A program made the position numbers and the translations under genes. The notes beneath the pieces were generated by a model, which was not told the origin of the DNA, ran no database searches, and was given only the letters and a program-made list of their open reading frames with translations. A stretch of DNA of 48,905 nt from an uncultured Bacteroidales bacterium (GTDB lineage Bacteria; Bacteroidota; Bacteroidia; Bacteroidales; Bacteroidaceae). The DNA lies in NCBI GenBank assembly GCA_902775975.1, contig CACYOC010000036.1, positions 1 through 48,905 on the forward strand, read 5' to 3'. Position 1 is the first letter of the stretch. Each line of letters begins with the position of its first letter. Shown here piece after piece: positions 1,422 to 6,894 of the stretch.

Positions 1422-1481
1422 TATGGGTCTAATGGGTCTAATGGGTCTTATGGGCCTAATGGGCCTTATGGGCCTTATGGG
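1422..1481. repeat. 9-bp tandem repeat (six copies) between ligA and metY
   Basis: Six consecutive 9-bp units of the form (T/A)ATGGG(T/C)CT fill 1422-1475, followed by a partial copy to 1481. The first three units carry GGGTCT and the last three GGGCCT. The array contains the ligA stop codon (1475-1477) and ends six bases before the metY start codon, so it forms the whole ligA-metY junction. On the mRNA strand every unit reads as TAA/TTA plus a GGCCCA or GACCCA block. Confidence 0.9.
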
Positions 1482-3598
1482 GCGGTGTAGCGGGCAAGGA
1501 AGTCGTCCTCGGAGAGGATGGGGATGCCGAGCTGCTGGGCTTTTTTGTTCTTGCCTGACGTGGAGGTGACGTCGTTGTTGATGAGGAACGACGTGGAGCC
1601 GCTGACGGCTGATGCGACCTTGCCGCCCTGCGACTCGATGTAGGCTTTCAGCTCGTTGCGGTTCTTATAGTGATGTACGTCGCCTGTGATGACGAAGGTA
1701 AGGCCTTCGCAGAGGGTGCCTGCCGGTGTGATGTCGGGGTCGGTGACTTCGAGCTGGGCCAAGAGGCGCTGATAGCGCGCAAGGTTATGGGCGTCACGGA
1801 ACCAGCGGACGAAGGACGCGGACTTCTCGGGACCGATGCCATCGATGTGGGCGAAGACTTCCTCGGCGGGTGAACCGCCGAGCGCAGTGGAGCCTGCTGG
1901 AGAAGTGGCGAAGAGGTCAAGCTGAGTGACGGGGGCAACGGGAGGGGCAGGAACCTCGGCGGGTGAACCGCCGAGCGCAGTGGAACCCGACGGAGATACG
2001 TCGGGAGTGGTGGTAGTGGCGGTGGCCATGGAGACCAGGTCGGCGAGGGGGTGGGCGGCGAGGAGGCGCTTGCAGACGTCGAGGCCGCAGAGGGGAATGT
2101 TGAGGGCGTAGAGCAGCCGGTGTGCCTCTACGTTGCGCGACTTGTCGATGCTGCGCATGATGTTGGACGCTGACTTCTCGCCGAAGCCTTCCATGAGCGA
2201 CAGCTCACGGATGTGGCTGCGCAAGTCGTAGATGTCGGCATACTCGCTGACCCAGCCGAGGTTGATGAACTTGGCGAGGGTCTGTTCGGAGATGCCGTCG
2301 ATGTTCATGCCCTCCTTGGAGACGAAGCGCGCAAACTTGCGCAGCTGCTTGGCAGGGCAGTCGGCATTGGTGCAGTGCAGGGTCTTGGTGCCACTGGCCT
2401 CGCTGGTTCTTACCACGGCGGGGGCATGGCAGACGGGGCATTGGCTTGGAACGGTGAACGCTCCGATGCGCTCCGTGACCTGGATGACCTTGGGGATAAT
2501 CTTGTTGGCCTTGATGACGCTGAGACGTGTTCCAGGACCGCCGATGCCCAGTCGCTCGCACTCGCTGATGTTGCACAGTGAGGCGCGTTGTACGGTGGTT
2601 CCCTCCAGCTCGACGGGCTGGAAGATGGCCACTGGCGATATGGTGCTGGCGGCACACGACCACTCTATCTCTTTCAAGACGGTATCGGCACTCTCGTCCT
2701 GCCATTTAAAGGCCAGTCCTGCACGGGTGGCATGATGGCCTGTGACGCTGCCCGTCTGTGCATAGTCCGTATCGTCGTAGCAGATGACGAGGCCATCGAC
2801 GGGAAAGGGATTCTGGCGGGAGGTGACTTTTTGGGTGAAGACGGCTAACCCGTCTTCCACTGCAGTTGTTGCGGGATGTTCCAGGAAGAGTCGCTCGACG
2901 GTGTGGAAGCCCTGCTGGTCGAGCCACGCCATGCGGTCGCCCCAGCTTACTATGGTTTCCTCTATATATACTAAGGTGAAGGGTATCCACTGAATGTGGC
3001 GCTGGCGCACCTCGTCGATGTCCTTCAGTGTCAGCGAGCCGGAAGCGAGGTTGCGCGGGTTGGCATAGTCCTCGCCACTCTCCATGAGGAAGCGGTCGAA
3101 GTCGTCGTAGCTGATGACTGCCTCGCCGCGAATGACGAGATGACCGTGGTAGTCGATGGTCTTGGGAATGCCGCTAATGGCGCTGGCGAGATGTGTGATG
3201 TTGGTACCGATGTGGCCATTGCCACGGGTAACGACTTTCGACAGTTTTCCGCCATCGTAAGTGACAACGAGCGTCAGGCCGTCCAACTTCCACGAAATCC
3301 AGATGGGGCGCTCTTCAGCCCACTTGACGAGGTCGTCAACCAGCTTGGTCTTTGCCAAGGAGAGTGCGGCAAACTCGTGCTCCTCCTTCTGGCCGACGAT
3401 GGCGTCCTCGGAGACTTTCTGCGTGGGAGAGTCGGGCAGGGTAGTGCCGGTGAGCTGCTCCAACTGGCGCAACTCGTCGAAACGGGCATCCCACTCGTAG
3501 TCCGTCATGCGCTCAGCGCGGCCGTTGTAATAGGCGTCGCTGGCCTCGTTGAGCTCGCGAACGAGCTGTTGCATTCTCAGTATTCTATCGTCTGCCAT
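1475..3598 (-). CDS. ligA: NAD-dependent DNA ligase, divergent LigA-type with a repeat-derived insert
   Basis: This 707-aa protein has the full LigA layout: N-terminal Ia domain, adenylation domain, OB fold, four-Cys zinc finger (CPVC...CTNADC), helix-hairpin-helix region (NIDGISEQTL, IDGIGPEKSA) and a C-terminal BRCT domain from about residue 635. The AMP-accepting lysine is K104 in WKLDG. Several motifs differ from canonical LigA: WKLDGLTLV instead of EPKxDG, TRGNG instead of TRGDG, and NPRNLASGSL instead of NPRNAAAGSL. As far as I recall, these variants match a second ligase type common in Clostridia, so the chromosome may carry a canonical ligA elsewhere. Residues about 528-579 are an insert made of repeated Thr/Pro/Ser/Gly-rich peptide between the helix-hairpin-helix motifs, and this explains the extra length over the usual ~665 aa. 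The enzyme seals nicks using NAD+. Confidence 0.9.
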   Translation of the reverse strand: MADDRILRMQQLVRELNEASDAYYNGRAERMTDYEWDARFDELRQLEQLTGTTLPDSPTQKVSEDAIVGQKEEHEFAALSLAKTKLVDDLVKWAEERPIWISWKLDGLTLVVTYDGGKLSKVVTRGNGHIGTNITHLASAISGIPKTIDYHGHLVIRGEAVISYDDFDRFLMESGEDYANPRNLASGSLTLKDIDEVRQRHIQWIPFTLVYIEETIVSWGDRMAWLDQQGFHTVERLFLEHPATTAVEDGLAVFTQKVTSRQNPFPVDGLVICYDDTDYAQTGSVTGHHATRAGLAFKWQDESADTVLKEIEWSCAASTISPVAIFQPVELEGTTVQRASLCNISECERLGIGGPGTRLSVIKANKIIPKVIQVTERIGAFTVPSQCPVCHAPAVVRTSEASGTKTLHCTNADCPAKQLRKFARFVSKEGMNIDGISEQTLAKFINLGWVSEYADIYDLRSHIRELSLMEGFGEKSASNIMRSIDKSRNVEAHRLLYALNIPLCGLDVCKRLLAAHPLADLVSMATATTTTPDVSPSGSTALGGSPAEVPAPPVAPVTQLDLFATSPAGSTALGGSPAEEVFAHIDGIGPEKSASFVRWFRDAHNLARYQRLLAQLEVTDPDITPAGTLCEGLTFVITGDVHHYKNRNELKAYIESQGGKVASAVSGSTSFLINNDVTSTSGKNKKAQQLGIPILSEDDFLARYTAP
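1861..2017 (-). repeat. In-frame palindromic repeat insert within ligA
   Basis: The segment encodes ligA residues ~528-579. A 31-bp unit is perfectly duplicated (1861-1891 and 1954-1984). Each copy holds hairpin B with 8-bp arms CTCGGCGG/CCGCCGAG and a 5-nt loop (1862-1882, 1955-1975). Next to the second copy lies hairpin A (1986-2005), with 7-bp arms CCCGACG/CGTCGGG. The corresponding hairpin next to the first copy is degenerate. The encoded words are TTTPDVSPSGST and STALGGSPAE. The same modules occur inside prmA. Confidence 0.9.
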
Positions 3599-3623
3599 AA
3601 GTACTTTTTGCTTTTTGCGAACG

Positions 3624-3631
3624 CAAAGGTA
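3624..3631 (-). promoter_or_regulatory. ligA promoter -7 box
   Basis: Minus-strand TACCTTTG, the Bacteroidetes -7 consensus, lies 26 bp ahead of the ligA ATG, with an AT-rich upstream region. No sharp -33 box is visible. Confidence 0.6.
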
Positions 3632-3640
3632 CGAAAATAT

Positions 3641-3671
3641 TTGGAAATTGGAAAAATATTACGTACTTTTG
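3641..3671 (+). promoter_or_regulatory. Promoter for the gene remnant and TonB-dependent receptor
   Basis: TTGG at 3641-3644 and TACTTTTG at 3664-3671 are separated by 19 bp, which matches Bacteroidetes -33/-7 spacing. Transcription would run through the 35-codon remnant into the receptor gene. It lies back to back with the ligA promoter. Confidence 0.65.
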
Positions 3672-3702
3672 CACATGATTTAACGAAACATAGCGAAAAG
3701 AG

Positions 3703-3810
3703 ATGCAGAAACTGTTCTTTGAACTGATACGCGTGGCGTTAGGACAGCAGGATTGCGTGGACCGTGCGCCGCTGACCGAGGAATGGTCTGAGCTGTATCA
3801 TTTGTATTGA
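3703..3810 (+). pseudogene. 35-codon remnant of a nucleotidyltransferase-type gene (N-terminus only)
   Basis: An ATG opens a 35-aa frame (MQKLFFELIRVALGQQDC..., ending in EEWSELYHLY) that stops at TGA 3808-3810. The sequence resembles the first residues of a nucleotidyltransferase-family protein widespread in Bacteroidetes (pattern FELLRIALG...W..LY), which normally continues for several hundred residues. The gene therefore appears truncated, with its promoter and start retained. Its stop overlaps a TTG codon in frame with the downstream receptor (TTGA), so the remnant may now serve as a translated leader. The family assignment is from memory and moderate; the truncation depends on it. Confidence 0.45.
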
Positions 3811-3827
3811 GACACAAAATAAACAAG

Positions 3828-5855
3828 ATGAATAGTCTAATTCCGTTGCTGGCTTTGGCTGTTGTTACGCCGATGTCAGCACAAACACCGACAGACACCA
3901 CAGACTGTGACCACATGCACCACCTGCAGGAGGTAGTGGTGACTGGCCTGACAGGACAGACACGTATGAACCAGTTGCCGGCACCGATGCTGGTCATTCA
4001 TCCACGCCTGTTGCAGGAGACATCATCCACGAACATCATCGACGCCCTGGCACATCAGCCGGGAGTCAGTCAGATAACAACCGGCAGCGGCATCTCGAAA
4101 CCCGTTATCCGCGGTCTGGGCTATAACCGCATCGTCACGGTCGTTGACGGCGTGCGGCAAGAGGGTCAGCAGTGGGGCGACGAGCACGGCATAGAAGTCG
4201 ATGCGCAGACCGTCAATTCCGCCGAGATTCTGAAAGGTCCCGCGTCGCTGATGTATGGCTCGGACGCGATGGCAGGCGTGCTGGTGTTGCACGATGCTCC
4301 CCTGATGGCTGATGGAAAGATGGCTGCACACTTGGGAGGAGAGTATCAGTCGAACAACAAGCTGCTGGACTACACCGTGAATTTTGCCGGACGTCAGAAA
4401 GCCTTTGTGTGGAACTGGCGATGGAGTCAGAAGGATGCCGGCGAATATAGGAACAAGGTCGATGGCCGTGTGCCTGGGTCGCAGTTCAAGGAACGTGCCG
4501 TCAAGGGAATGATGGGCGTCAATCAGGACTGGGGCCACTCGCACCTGAAGTTGTCATACTACTACATCCGCCCGGGAATGATTGAAGGTGGGCGTCATGT
4601 CGAGACCAACGAGTTGGAACCTTCGGATGCCTTTCAGCGCATACAGCACTATAAAGCCCTGTTGGACAACTCGTTCAATATTGGCGAGGGCTCGCTGAAG
4701 GTGTTGGTGGGTTATCAGCAGAACCGCCGTCAGGAGTATGAGAATGCTGAGACGCCAGGACTGGACTTCCGTCTGCATACCATGAACTACGACGTGCATT
4801 ACCTGTTAGCCCATCAGGAGGCGTGGCAGTTTGCCGGCGGCGTCTCGGGCATGTGGCAACGGTCGCAGAACCTGGGTACGGAGTATCTGATACCCGCCTA
4901 CCGGCTGTTCGACATAGGAGCCTTTGCCTCCGTGACACACCATATAGAGAGCCTGACGCTGAGCGGCGGTCTGCGCTTCGACAACCGCAGCCTGCACAGC
5001 TATGCGCTGGAGGACAAGGGAGAACTTCGCTTCATGGATTTCTATCGCAGTTTCCGTGGACTGACAGGGTCGTTAGGTGCTATCTATAACATCACCGAGC
5101 GGCTGGACGTCCGCCTGAATGTGTCGCACGGCTTCCGCGCTCCGAACCTGAGCGAGTTAGGCAGCAACGGCGAGCATGAGGGAACGTTCCGCTTCGAGCA
5201 CGGCAACCAAGACCTGAAGGCTGAGCAGAGCTGGCAGTTAGACCTGGGAATGGACTTCTCGTCCGAGTTCGTCACGGCGCAGCTGTCGCTGTTTGCCAAC
5301 CACATCTCGAACTACATCTTCTTAGAACGCGAGTCGCCGCTGACCAACGACTATCGCTACCAGCAGGGCACGGCGCGCCTGCTGGGCGGCGAGGTGGCTG
5401 TCGATATGCACCCGTTGGAACGGTTGCACTTTGAGAACACCTTCTCGTATGTCAACGCCCGACAACTGCACCAGCCGCGAGAGAACCGCTGGCTGCCCTT
5501 CACGCCAGCACCGCGCTGGACCAGCAACCTGCGTTACGACATCATTCGCAACGGACGGACGCTGAACAACACCTTCGTGGCGATGGGACTGGAGTGCTAC
5601 CTGAAGCAGTCGAACGTGCGAACGGTCAACGCAACGGAGACCGCCACGCCTTCATATACGCTGCTGAACATGACGGCAGGAACCGACCTGCGCTATAAGC
5701 TGCGTAAGGTGGCGTCGCTCTTTGTGAGTGTGCAGAACCTGACGAACCGTGCCTACCAGTCGCACCTGAGTCGACTGAAGTATGCCGACGGCCCCGGCAT
5801 CTGCAACATGGGGCGTTCGTTCAACGTGAAGCTGCTGGTGCCGATTAACTTGTAA
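3828..5855 (+). CDS. TonB-dependent outer-membrane receptor, possibly for zinc or another metal
   Basis: From ATG 3828 the protein has 675 aa. The seven extra codons from TTG 3807 would only lengthen the region before the signal peptide. The signal peptide (MNSLIPLLALAVVTPMSAQ) is followed by a short His/Asp/Cys-rich stretch (DTTDCDHMHH) and a TonB box-like LQEVVVTG. The plug domain follows (about residues 40-160, with the VVDGVRQEGQQWGDEHG and EILKGPASLMYGSDAMAG motifs), then a 22-strand-type barrel that ends in the aromatic/hydrophobic C-terminus typical of the family. The DGVRQEGQQWGDEHG plug motif and the FRAPNLSELGSNGEHEGTFRFEHGN barrel region resemble ZnuD-like zinc receptors, and the N-terminal His cluster would suit metal binding. 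No SusD partner or siderophore genes are adjacent. The receptor call is firm; the substrate is inference. Confidence 0.9.
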   Translation: MNSLIPLLALAVVTPMSAQTPTDTTDCDHMHHLQEVVVTGLTGQTRMNQLPAPMLVIHPRLLQETSSTNIIDALAHQPGVSQITTGSGISKPVIRGLGYNRIVTVVDGVRQEGQQWGDEHGIEVDAQTVNSAEILKGPASLMYGSDAMAGVLVLHDAPLMADGKMAAHLGGEYQSNNKLLDYTVNFAGRQKAFVWNWRWSQKDAGEYRNKVDGRVPGSQFKERAVKGMMGVNQDWGHSHLKLSYYYIRPGMIEGGRHVETNELEPSDAFQRIQHYKALLDNSFNIGEGSLKVLVGYQQNRRQEYENAETPGLDFRLHTMNYDVHYLLAHQEAWQFAGGVSGMWQRSQNLGTEYLIPAYRLFDIGAFASVTHHIESLTLSGGLRFDNRSLHSYALEDKGELRFMDFYRSFRGLTGSLGAIYNITERLDVRLNVSHGFRAPNLSELGSNGEHEGTFRFEHGNQDLKAEQSWQLDLGMDFSSEFVTAQLSLFANHISNYIFLERESPLTNDYRYQQGTARLLGGEVAVDMHPLERLHFENTFSYVNARQLHQPRENRWLPFTPAPRWTSNLRYDIIRNGRTLNNTFVAMGLECYLKQSNVRTVNATETATPSYTLLNMTAGTDLRYKLRKVASLFVSVQNLTNRAYQSHLSRLKYADGPGICNMGRSFNVKLLVPINL

Positions 5856-5871
5856 CGAGGAAAACGAGCGG

Positions 5872-6894
5872 TTACCGCTGGAAAACCATGCACGCCCAGT
5901 CGCCGTCGGTCTTGGTGGCGGTGAGCGTGAGTCCTAACGACTGTGCTTTGCTTTCGAGCAGGGCGCAGTCGCTTTCGTAGAAGCCGCTGAGGATGAGCGT
6001 GGCGCGGGGCGCCATGACGCTGACGAAGCGCGGCATGTCCTGCAACAGGATGTTGCGGTTGATATTGGCGAGGACGAGGGAGAAACCCACCGGAGAAGCG
6101 GCGGGAGTGGTGGTGGAGCCCGACGGAGAAGCGGCGGAAACCTCGGCGGGTGAACCGCCGAGCACAGTGCTGTTTCCGCCGAGCACAGTGCTATCGCCGC
6201 AGAGGACAGTGAGGCGGTCATCGACGTGGTTGATGACGGCATTGTGGCGGGTGTTATCGGTGCTCCACTCGTCTATGTCGTAGGCAACGCAGGAGGCGGC
6301 GCCCAACTTCAGGGCGCAGATGCCCAAGATGCCCGTGCCGCAGCCGCAGTCGAGGACGCGCTGGTGCTGGAGGTCCATGGCGAGCAGGGTGGCGCATATC
6401 ATGCGGGTCGTTTCGTGAGTGCCGGTGCCGAAGGCGAGGTGTGCGTCGATCTCGATGGAGAGGGAACCCGACGGAGAACCCGCTGGAGAAACAGCGGGAG
6501 TGGTGGTGGAACCCGACGGAGATACGTCGGGAGTAGTGGTGGGCAAGTGGCGGCCATCGTGGATGATGAGCGTAAGGGCAGAAGTCTCGCCGCTCACCTC
6601 TCGCCTCTCACCTCTGACAACGATGGGTTCGAAGCCTTCCTGCTCCCATTGTTCGTTCCAGTCGCGGTCTTCCGCCTCGCGTACCTTATATTTAATAGAG
6701 GAGGGGAAGGGGAAGGCGTCGAGGGCGAGTCGCAGGGCGTCTTCGTCGTAGAGCGACTGCTGGATGTAAGCCTTCAGACCATCGGCGGTCTGCTCGAAAC
6801 TTTCGCAACCGGCTTCGCCAGCCAGCGCGGAGAGCACGTCCTGAGCATCTTCGGTACAGGGCGTAAGGGTGAAATCTATCTCGAAATACTTCAT
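5872..6894 (-). CDS. prmA: Ribosomal protein L11 methyltransferase with two repeat-derived inserts
   Basis: PrmA methylates ribosomal protein L11 using S-adenosylmethionine. The N-terminal substrate-recognition domain starts MKYFEIDFTL. The SAM-binding Rossmann domain shows AFGTGTHETT, VLDCGCGTGILGICALKLGA, and LVLANINRNILLQD, the N-[IL]-N-type motif. The product has 340 aa where about 280 is usual. The excess is two inserts of Thr/Pro/Ser/Gly-rich repeat peptide, at residues ~118-144 (just before the IEIDAHLAFGTG strand) and ~235-270 (between the GD turn and the LVLANINRN strand). Both fall at loop positions, so activity may be kept. The gene converges with the TonB receptor (16 bp gap) and is divergent from the Tyr/Gly-rich gene. 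A TAATTTTG -7 box lies near 6941-6948 on the minus strand. Confidence 0.93.
   Translation of the reverse strand: MKYFEIDFTLTPCTEDAQDVLSALAGEAGCESFEQTADGLKAYIQQSLYDEDALRLALDAFPFPSSIKYKVREAEDRDWNEQWEQEGFEPIVVRGERREVSGETSALTLIIHDGRHLPTTTPDVSPSGSTTTPAVSPAGSPSGSLSIEIDAHLAFGTGTHETTRMICATLLAMDLQHQRVLDCGCGTGILGICALKLGAASCVAYDIDEWSTDNTRHNAVINHVDDRLTVLCGDSTVLGGNSTVLGGSPAEVSAASPSGSTTTPAASPVGFSLVLANINRNILLQDMPRFVSVMAPRATLILSGFYESDCALLESKAQSLGLTLTATKTDGDWACMVFQR
6085..6192 (-). repeat. In-frame palindromic repeat insert 2 within prmA
   Basis: The segment encodes residues ~235-270 (STVLGGNSTVLGGSPAEV... through SGSTTTPAASPVG). It contains hairpin B (6142-6162; arms CTCGGCGG/CCGCCGAG, identical to ligA) and two hairpin A variants (6086-6105 and 6119-6138). 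In the coding RNA the 6086-6105 stem pairs CCCGCCG with CGGTGGG using one G-U pair. In the other strand this would be an A-C mismatch. Confidence 0.88.
6463..6543 (-). repeat. In-frame palindromic repeat insert 1 within prmA
   Basis: The segment encodes residues ~118-144 (TTTPDVSPSGST then TTPAVSPAGSPSGS). Hairpin A at 6512-6531 is identical to the ligA copy, and the flanks match it as well. The neighbouring copy at 6479-6498 has arms CCCGCTG/CAGCGGG. Both arms changed together, so the 7-bp stem is kept while the peptide becomes PAVSPAG. Confidence 0.88.

Follow-up and report, generated by a model that had tools for sequence, protein, structure and literature searches.

A tagged hairpin element in frame in ligA and prmA of an uncultured Bacteroidales bacterium and its association with RAYT-like transposases

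The window analyzed here, a 48,905-nucleotide (nt) stretch from an uncultured Bacteroidales bacterium (contig CACYOC010000036.1 of assembly GCA_902775975.1), poses the question of how two unrelated genes, ligA and prmA, came to carry the same short palindromes within their coding sequences. A first-pass annotation, made from the letters alone, had read them as one shared palindromic element inserted in frame in both genes, and the modules that we located bear this out. We think it likely that the inserts represent a miniature DNA element that occurs in a Prevotella-type genus and resembles the repetitive extragenic palindromes (REPs), and that this element is spread by enzymes akin to the REP-associated tyrosine transposases (RAYTs) and tolerated in protein loops. 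Selfish DNA of this kind describes the element better than a regulatory RNA or a selected peptide does.

Anatomy and dispersal of the element

Two hairpin modules, A and B, are common to the coding (minus) strand of ligA and prmA (Table 1). The unit consists of a 5' GYG tag, most commonly CTGYG, abutting a hairpin of 21 nt in module B and 20 nt in module A. On the minus strand, module B reads CTCGGCGGTTCACCCGCCGAG, with an 8-base-pair (bp) stem and a 5-nt TTYNS loop; it occurs in three exact copies in the window, against a mean of 0.00 matches in 100 window shuffles. Module A has 7-bp arms and a loop mostly of the NTTCTC type, and its pattern has six matches in the window against 0.07 expected; three of its copies are perfectly paired and two imperfectly, and there is a part copy besides. 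Its arms differ between copies and yet stay paired (CCCGACG/CGTCGGG and CCCGCTG/CAGCGGG), just as the first-pass annotation had noticed. Modules A and B appear to be sister forms of a single short element, A resembling B minus one loop base, and a form common in other genomes, CCCGACGGTTCTCCGTCGGG, would likewise be module B with one loop base fewer.

Copies elsewhere in the host genome, which that annotation had anticipated, are abundant. The loop-proximal core of module B, CGGTTYNSCCG, chosen regardless of the outer arms, has 93 matches in the host genome compared with 17 for the reversed control pattern. Of these 93 matches, 59 have four or more complementary pairs among the five outer arm positions, and 42 have all five; when the right arms were re-dealt, the mean number of well-paired matches was 9.3, with a maximum of 22 in 20,000 permutations. 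The excess persists among distinct arm pairs only (36 of 68 well paired versus 4.3 permuted) and among copies outside sense phase 0 (25 of 34 versus 4.1), so that the suspected stem covariation is upheld. GYG directly precedes the hairpin foot in 44 of the 55 de-duplicated well-paired copies, and CTGYG does so in 25 of them but in only 4 of 27 poorly paired core matches. Because GYG is enriched in fully paired matches (38 of 42) over those with two or fewer outer pairs (7 of 27), we regard it as part of the element. Pairing ends exactly at the hairpin foot in 54 of the 55 copies, the first stem pair is C-G or G-C in 50, and there is no CCA tail. Tandem expansion of copies is seen in the genes for GrpE, the HisB linker, a rhamnosidase, and MutS, and intergenic arrays exist as well.

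Chance palindromes in coding sequence would account for some native sites. An 8-bp hairpin in native ligA sequence (2837-2857) was rejected as an element copy and taken as chance, most of the 29 aligned LigA relatives being of equal length there, and single hairpins can thus arise by chance; some genomic copies may be native sequence too, VNGFPVD in MiaA being a likely case. As a general explanation, chance is extremely improbable given the control counts, the permutation results, and the zero expectation in window shuffles.

Strong matches are concentrated in one genus. A covariance model of the element, R1, applied with a cut-off of E 0.05, has matches in 59 of 120 genomes of the genus, the host included, and at least 10 matches in 21 of them; the per-genome counts are lower bounds for rich genomes (63 candidates were scored, and 25 in the search of the order). 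Among other genomes of the order, 9 of 294 have one weak match each, where about 3 would be expected at E 0.01, the E-values being rough. Module A has 49 matches in 21 of the 120 genomes, 13 of them in the host, compared with 9 and none, respectively, for the reversed pattern; its covarying arms in the genus include CCCGACG, CCCGCCG, CCCGATG, and CCCGCAG with their partners. A strict pattern search of named genomes returned 53 stretches, 46 of them from records titled Prevotella, Prevotellaceae, or Bacteroidaceae, four from Bacteroidetes or Bacteroidales, and one each from Alistipes, Porphyromonadaceae, and Planctomycetota; many of the record titles name ruminant samples. The description of the genus as Prevotella-type draws on the first-pass annotation and on relative UBA4301.

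Insertion sites, reading frame, and strand

Alleles without inserts, expected if the modules are insertions, proved to be the rule. None of the 29 aligned relatives, the nearest of which is 83% identical, has LigA residues 527-577: the stretch is either missing or taken up by different sequence (30 loci including the window's own, drawn from 112 genomes with a match). Both insert sites of PrmA are without modules in 20 of 20 chosen relatives, as judged from a peptide alignment with codons inspected in some. The ligA and prmA inserts had been placed in loops, and alignments, including two to solved structures, support their location in loops or length-variable stretches: the LigA insert falls between aligned blocks (LigA 513-617 versus 524-575 of 1dgs, found in a search at E 1e-20, one at 1e-90 having given no match), as do those of PrmA (87-143 and 228-263 versus 67-87 and 171-176 of 1ufk). 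A near relative, G122, has a different tandem repeat, TADTE/TANTE, in the first PrmA loop, where the window has module A copies (locus L220), and this loop therefore seems open to extra sequence. In ten relatives prmA was not found adjoining ligA; a protein search of 20 chosen genomes recovered the PrmA orthologues.

A fourth exact copy of module B lies on another contig of the host genome, in mutS. The roughly 30 extra residues of MutS are shared by none of 19 aligned relatives, two of which have other extra segments (locus L259, below the word threshold, was left out of the alignment). Relative UBA4301 (locus L213) carries the element at the same place, and this insertion is thus common to at least two genomes. 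In another relative, G056 (L241), a short addition of different sequence, GNPGQSGNSGN, is present in MutS at the place of the insert.

Across the host genome, 53 of 59 copies lie within stop-to-stop frames of at least 200 amino acids (aa), some of which are leaders or array artefacts. Frames with well-paired copies match, in NCBIfam or Pfam, phosphoglycerate mutase, a RecD-like helicase, GrpE, MnmG, and a PatB-type lyase, as well as peptidyl-dipeptidase, rhamnosidase, HisB, GldL, ArgS, MiaA, and UvrA; cysteinyl-tRNA synthetase, GcpE (IspG), and others are also matched, and several of these matches score below curated cut-offs. In PatB and the dipeptidase, the copies are close to where the matched domain begins or ahead of it, and the HisB copies fall in the stretch that separates its two catalytic domains (profile stretches 20-163 and 216-407, copy at residue 191). 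Antisense copies occur in LeuS and a PurL-like gene.

These sites bear on two rival readings, of which selection at the protein level is quite improbable. Under it, a flexible linker peptide (xGSPx, SPSGS) would be favored and its codons would be palindromic by coincidence, in keeping with the placement of inserts in length-variable stretches and with the predominance of sense phase 0, in which we found 31 of 48 host copies outside the cluster on contig C28 and 50 of 64 copies in other genomes, the latter search partly presetting arms and tag. However, arms covary beyond permutation outside sense phase 0 too, intergenic arrays exist, and the insert peptides differ (LGGSPAE, LDGSPVE, VSGSPAD, LDGGTVE, AWRFTRQG). 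Poorly paired core matches are likewise in sense phase 0 in 20 of 26 cases, so the phase bias is not specific proof of peptide selection.

The other reading, in which selection preserves hairpins in the mRNA for a role in regulation or stability, is very improbable. It agrees with the excess of sense over antisense copies in the host genome (46 versus 13) and with one G-U pair in the window: pairing of the mRNA through G-U, as had been proposed, holds at 6086-6105, but the neighboring copy at 6119-6138 has a true mismatch. Against it, the aligned LigA, PrmA, and MutS orthologues lack copies, and the 33 non-complementary arm pairs on the mRNA strand comprise 9 G.U, 14 A.C, and 10 others (7, 7, and 3 in the host's own genome; 2, 7, and 7 in other genomes). 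With G.U no more frequent than A.C, there is no visible maintenance of the hairpin as RNA. The earlier suggestion of selection or spread at the level of RNA or DNA structure thus stands for a dispersed, covarying DNA element and is not supported for RNA.

Two side observations concern ligA itself. LigA matches within the genus form two sets, ~67-83% and ~29-34% identical to the LigA of the window, which suggests two old ligase types in one genus. A nine-base tandem repeat, ATGGGTCTA, occupies positions 1423-1476 of the window, between the upstream gene and ligA.

Table 1. Element copies, tags, and their genes in the window
Feature	Position	Strand	Basis
ligA, NAD-dependent DNA ligase, 707 aa, carries first inserts	1475..3598	-	open reading frame; best solved relative 1dgs DNA ligase, E 2.4e-55
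Module B copy 1 in ligA, peptide LGGSPAE	1862..1882	-	exact 8-bp stem, 5-nt loop
LigA residues 528-577, absent or different in relatives	1868..2017	-	modules absent, 29/29 aligned loci
5' tag CTGCG of module B copy 1	1883..1887	-	sequence; tag statistics over 55 copies
Half module A fused to module B copy 1, peptide SPAGS	1888..1906	-	sequence and codon view
Module B copy 2 in ligA	1955..1975	-	hairpin/pattern match
5' tag CTGCG of module B copy 2	1976..1980	-	sequence; tag statistics
Module A in ligA, peptide PDVSPSG	1986..2005	-	7-bp arms, loop TATCTC
LigA peptide SPSGSTALGGSPAE			
Hairpin in native ligA sequence	2837..2857	-	8-bp; alignment of 29 relatives
prmA, ribosomal protein L11 methyltransferase, 340 aa, second insert set	5872..6894	-	open reading frame; solved relative 1ufk, E 6e-13
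Module A copy in prmA, one G-U on mRNA strand	6086..6105	-	sequence and pattern match
Imperfect module A copy in prmA, one G-U and one mismatch	6119..6138	-	sequence and pattern match
Module B copy 3, in prmA	6142..6162	-	hairpin/pattern match
5' tag CTGTG of module B copy 3	6163..6167	-	sequence; tag statistics
Truncated module B, reduced to tag and left arm, peptide STVLGG	6176..6189	-	repeat family D7; codon view
Part copy of module A	6464-6486	-	sequence
Module A copy in prmA, arms CCCGCTG/CAGCGGG	6479..6498	-	pattern and hairpin match
Module A copy in prmA, arms CCCGACG/CGTCGGG	6512..6531	-	pattern and hairpin match
PrmA peptide TVLGGSPAEVSAASPSGS			

A family of long RAYT-like transposases

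Following up weak Y1 matches in long open frames (~340-500 aa), we arrived at a family characterized by PDHLH-like and YLxDNPRR-like motifs and by a C-terminal part without a Pfam name. PDH.H and Y..DNPRRL are invariant across the 4 rows of the family profile, A2, and represent the HuH motif followed by the predicted catalytic tyrosine. All 8 members scanned have NCBIfam REP_Tyr_transpos (NF047646) as their best model, with E-values from 1.7e-12 to 5.1e-7; against solved structures, profile A2 gives weak matches to IS200-type transposases only, the best at E 0.029. Counts were made with profile A2, a search of 20 genomes with PF01797 under-counting the long family. It is present in 71 of the 120 genomes of the genus, with up to 10-11 matches per genome; some of the 11 matches in the host genome are parts of one gene.

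The element and this family are associated. Both occur in 47 of the 120 genomes, the element only in 12, the family only in 24, and neither in 37 (Fisher p 7e-6, Spearman 0.62). Among 117 transposase genes, namely the best profile A2 matches listed and the host genome's own, a module-B-type hairpin lies no more than 150 nt away from five, on the 3' side in each case; about 0.8 genes would be expected at the host density (59 copies per 2.7 Mb, over 35 kb). Four of the five belong to one well-supported clade of six, and the fifth, on host contig C28, is a long branch within a wider clade of 28, of which 23 have no such hairpin. Module A or B hairpins also lie in frame inside 11 of the 117 genes. 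There are 16 such hairpins, and CTGTG or CCGTG precedes the foot in 10, the module A filter itself having included a loose tag; four of the 11 genes contain inverted hairpin pairs, and in all five genes in which both motifs were found the hairpins fall between HuH and the tyrosine. Hairpins of at least 8 bp, possibly including ordinary terminators, are found 3' of 21 and 5' of 10 of the 117 genes, compared with ~0.5 in mononucleotide shuffles. Arrays of CCTGGCGGTTCACCCGCCAGG with a spacing of ~61-63 nt follow the C28 RAYT-like gene and also occur ~6 kb before it (G000:C28 9596-19198, L090). The C34 gene loci of the host genome have no R1 match.

Two further observations belong here. Module A copies are present near the C28 arrays and RAYT-like gene (L090). 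In another clade (L287, L288, L304, L305, L311, L289), hairpins of the form TGTTGCTGT-NNN-ACAGCAACA stand at the gene 3' end, with a CTGCA tag in four and a covarying form in L304; they are possibly a second REP family.

Several results weigh against spread of a REP-like element by these enzymes. The long-family scores, 29.7-47.4 bits, are below the cut-off of 80 of the NCBIfam RAYT model; the co-occurrence test takes no account of shared ancestry, and no family member is seen in 12 of the 59 element-positive genomes. Only 5 of the 117 transposase genes have an adjoining module B, a label not clearly clustered on the tree (4 changes versus 4.9 when shuffled, 28 of 500 shuffles being as low), and 106 are without an internal module by the filter used. 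The in-frame bias, shared with poorly paired matches, is not specific, and of the 34 well-paired copies in sense phase 0, permutation would give about 8 by chance. The 59 copies of the host include no inverted neighbors like those of REP doublets forming hairpins (REPINs), 15 neighbor pairs being on the same strand and 0 on opposite strands. The tag, GYG or CTGYG, is neither the GTAG nor the GTGG that passages of PMC6006769 place directly 5' of the hairpin in GTAG-tagged REPs. Single exact matches occur in assemblies labelled Alistipes, Planctomycetota, and Porphyromonadaceae (L193, L201, L202), and may reflect chance, misbinning, or transfer. We observed no transposition; in the collections, where each species is represented by a single genome, no empty site from the same species was found, and the boundaries of one insertion event are accordingly not defined exactly.

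The same evidence bears on a transposase-free alternative, which we judge unlikely but worth serious attention: a hairpin element spreading by strand slippage, template switching, or gene conversion, with the RAYT-like genes as one more set of targets. It draws on the tandem expansion in several genes, on the CGTC-tagged REPs, which according to section 16 of PMC3733652 have no associated transposase gene, and on the many RAYT-like genes without a copy and the unclear clustering of the five with an adjoining module B. It sits poorly, however, with copies that occupy many unrelated genes as well as intergenic DNA and that bear a 5' tag and a sharp foot, and with a link to a RAYT-related family that exceeds chance expectation.

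We continue to favor a REP-like element spread by RAYT-like enzymes. One or several of these enzymes would recognize the tag and hairpin on single-stranded DNA and copy or move the unit; in-frame insertions landing in exposed loops or linkers would survive and be translated into presumably neutral peptides, and the surviving inserts would later expand or decay via tandem duplication and point change. We put forward a broader picture only tentatively. The genus may have a separate RAYT-like lineage with an added C-terminal part and many paralogues, whose cognate GYG-tagged hairpins are chiefly intragenic; their codons might fit as turn-forming peptides, and the element might persist by becoming part of proteins, among them DNA repair enzymes. 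Arm diversity could then reflect several paralogues or recognition of structure only.

Comparison with known REP systems

On this reading, the REP/RAYT world would reach into a genus for which many assemblies come from the ruminant gut, and would gain a new tag, a lineage of long transposases, and targets that are mostly in frame. The element and the long RAYT-like family form a directly testable candidate enzyme-hairpin pair, and LigA, PrmA, and MutS, and likely UvrA and HisB, offer natural pairs of interrupted and uninterrupted core proteins for studying the entry of new peptide segments.

Parts of this picture have precedents. Section 15 of PMC3733652 describes REPs in frame in DNA repair genes, among them a ligase, and in Rickettsia, and section 13 of PMC6006769 describes REPs inside RAYT genes. 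In the searched literature on REPs, RAYTs, and Rickettsia palindromic elements (RPEs), we found neither the GYG/CTGYG tag nor the long transposases, and neither the genus nor a mostly intragenic spread, nor is the element named in the literature searched on REP/RAYT, palindromic elements, Bacteroidetes, and Prevotella, which is no proof of its being unpublished.

The first-pass annotation had named the Rickettsia palindromic element as the nearest concept. It is a fair analogue, sharing in-frame insertion in unrelated genes whose orthologues lack it, but REP/RAYT systems are closer in anatomy and through the RAYT-like genes. The intragenic RPE-4 and RPE-6 are classed as CGTC-tagged REPs (PMC3733652, sections 6 and 15), a group described there with an 8-9 bp stem, a 4-5 nt loop, and intragenic copies, many in replication and repair genes. 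Our element is similar in stem and loop size and in its intragenic copies; it differs in having none of the CGTC tag, the mostly A-T first two stem pairs, and the CCA-type tail given in section 6 of that source, and in being associated with transposase genes, RPE-4/6 being among the CGTC-tagged REPs reported without one. Neisseria dRS3, filed as CGTC-1 in the same section, is likewise a small dispersed inverted repeat, a likeness at the level of description.

A further parallel is TnpAY1 subclass 2.4 (RAYT group 4), which section 13 of PMC6006769 reports from Cyanobacteria, Bacteroidetes, and other phyla, with in-frame REPs inside tnpA, generally between HuH and the tyrosine. The long family shares such internal hairpins and their position. 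By published description, the basis of this comparison, it departs from the subclass, listed in PMC6006769 with motifs NH[IFV]H and YIxNNP, a length of 194, and the REP tag GT[AG]G, in its PDHLH-like and YLxDNPRR-like motifs, long C-terminal part, and other tag.

REPs in general, in the passages of PMC6006769 and PMC3733652 that treat them, are short high-copy palindromes of patchy distribution with an unpaired motif directly 5' of the foot, and some HuH/Y RAYT (TnpA-REP) genes have REP copies adjoining; parts of PMC6006769 and PMC8266576 describe TnpA-REP as acting on single-stranded hairpins beside a guide motif. Wide-sense REPs, palindromes of 20-40 bp that are present in many copies and bear an unpaired tag at one end, are mainly extragenic, whereas most host copies of our element, which has these same features, lie in open reading frames. 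Its arms vary widely within one genome, unlike those of REP/RAYT systems, and the transposases are longer than RAYTs and below their curated cut-off, with host copies lacking inverted neighbor pairs. In a REPtron, cognate REPs flank the RAYT gene; the module B copies adjoining genes of the long family are limited to five of the 117 and to the 3' side. What the element has in common with REP/RAYT systems is a tagged high-copy palindrome, a patchy distribution, and HuH/Y genes, some of them with adjoining copies.

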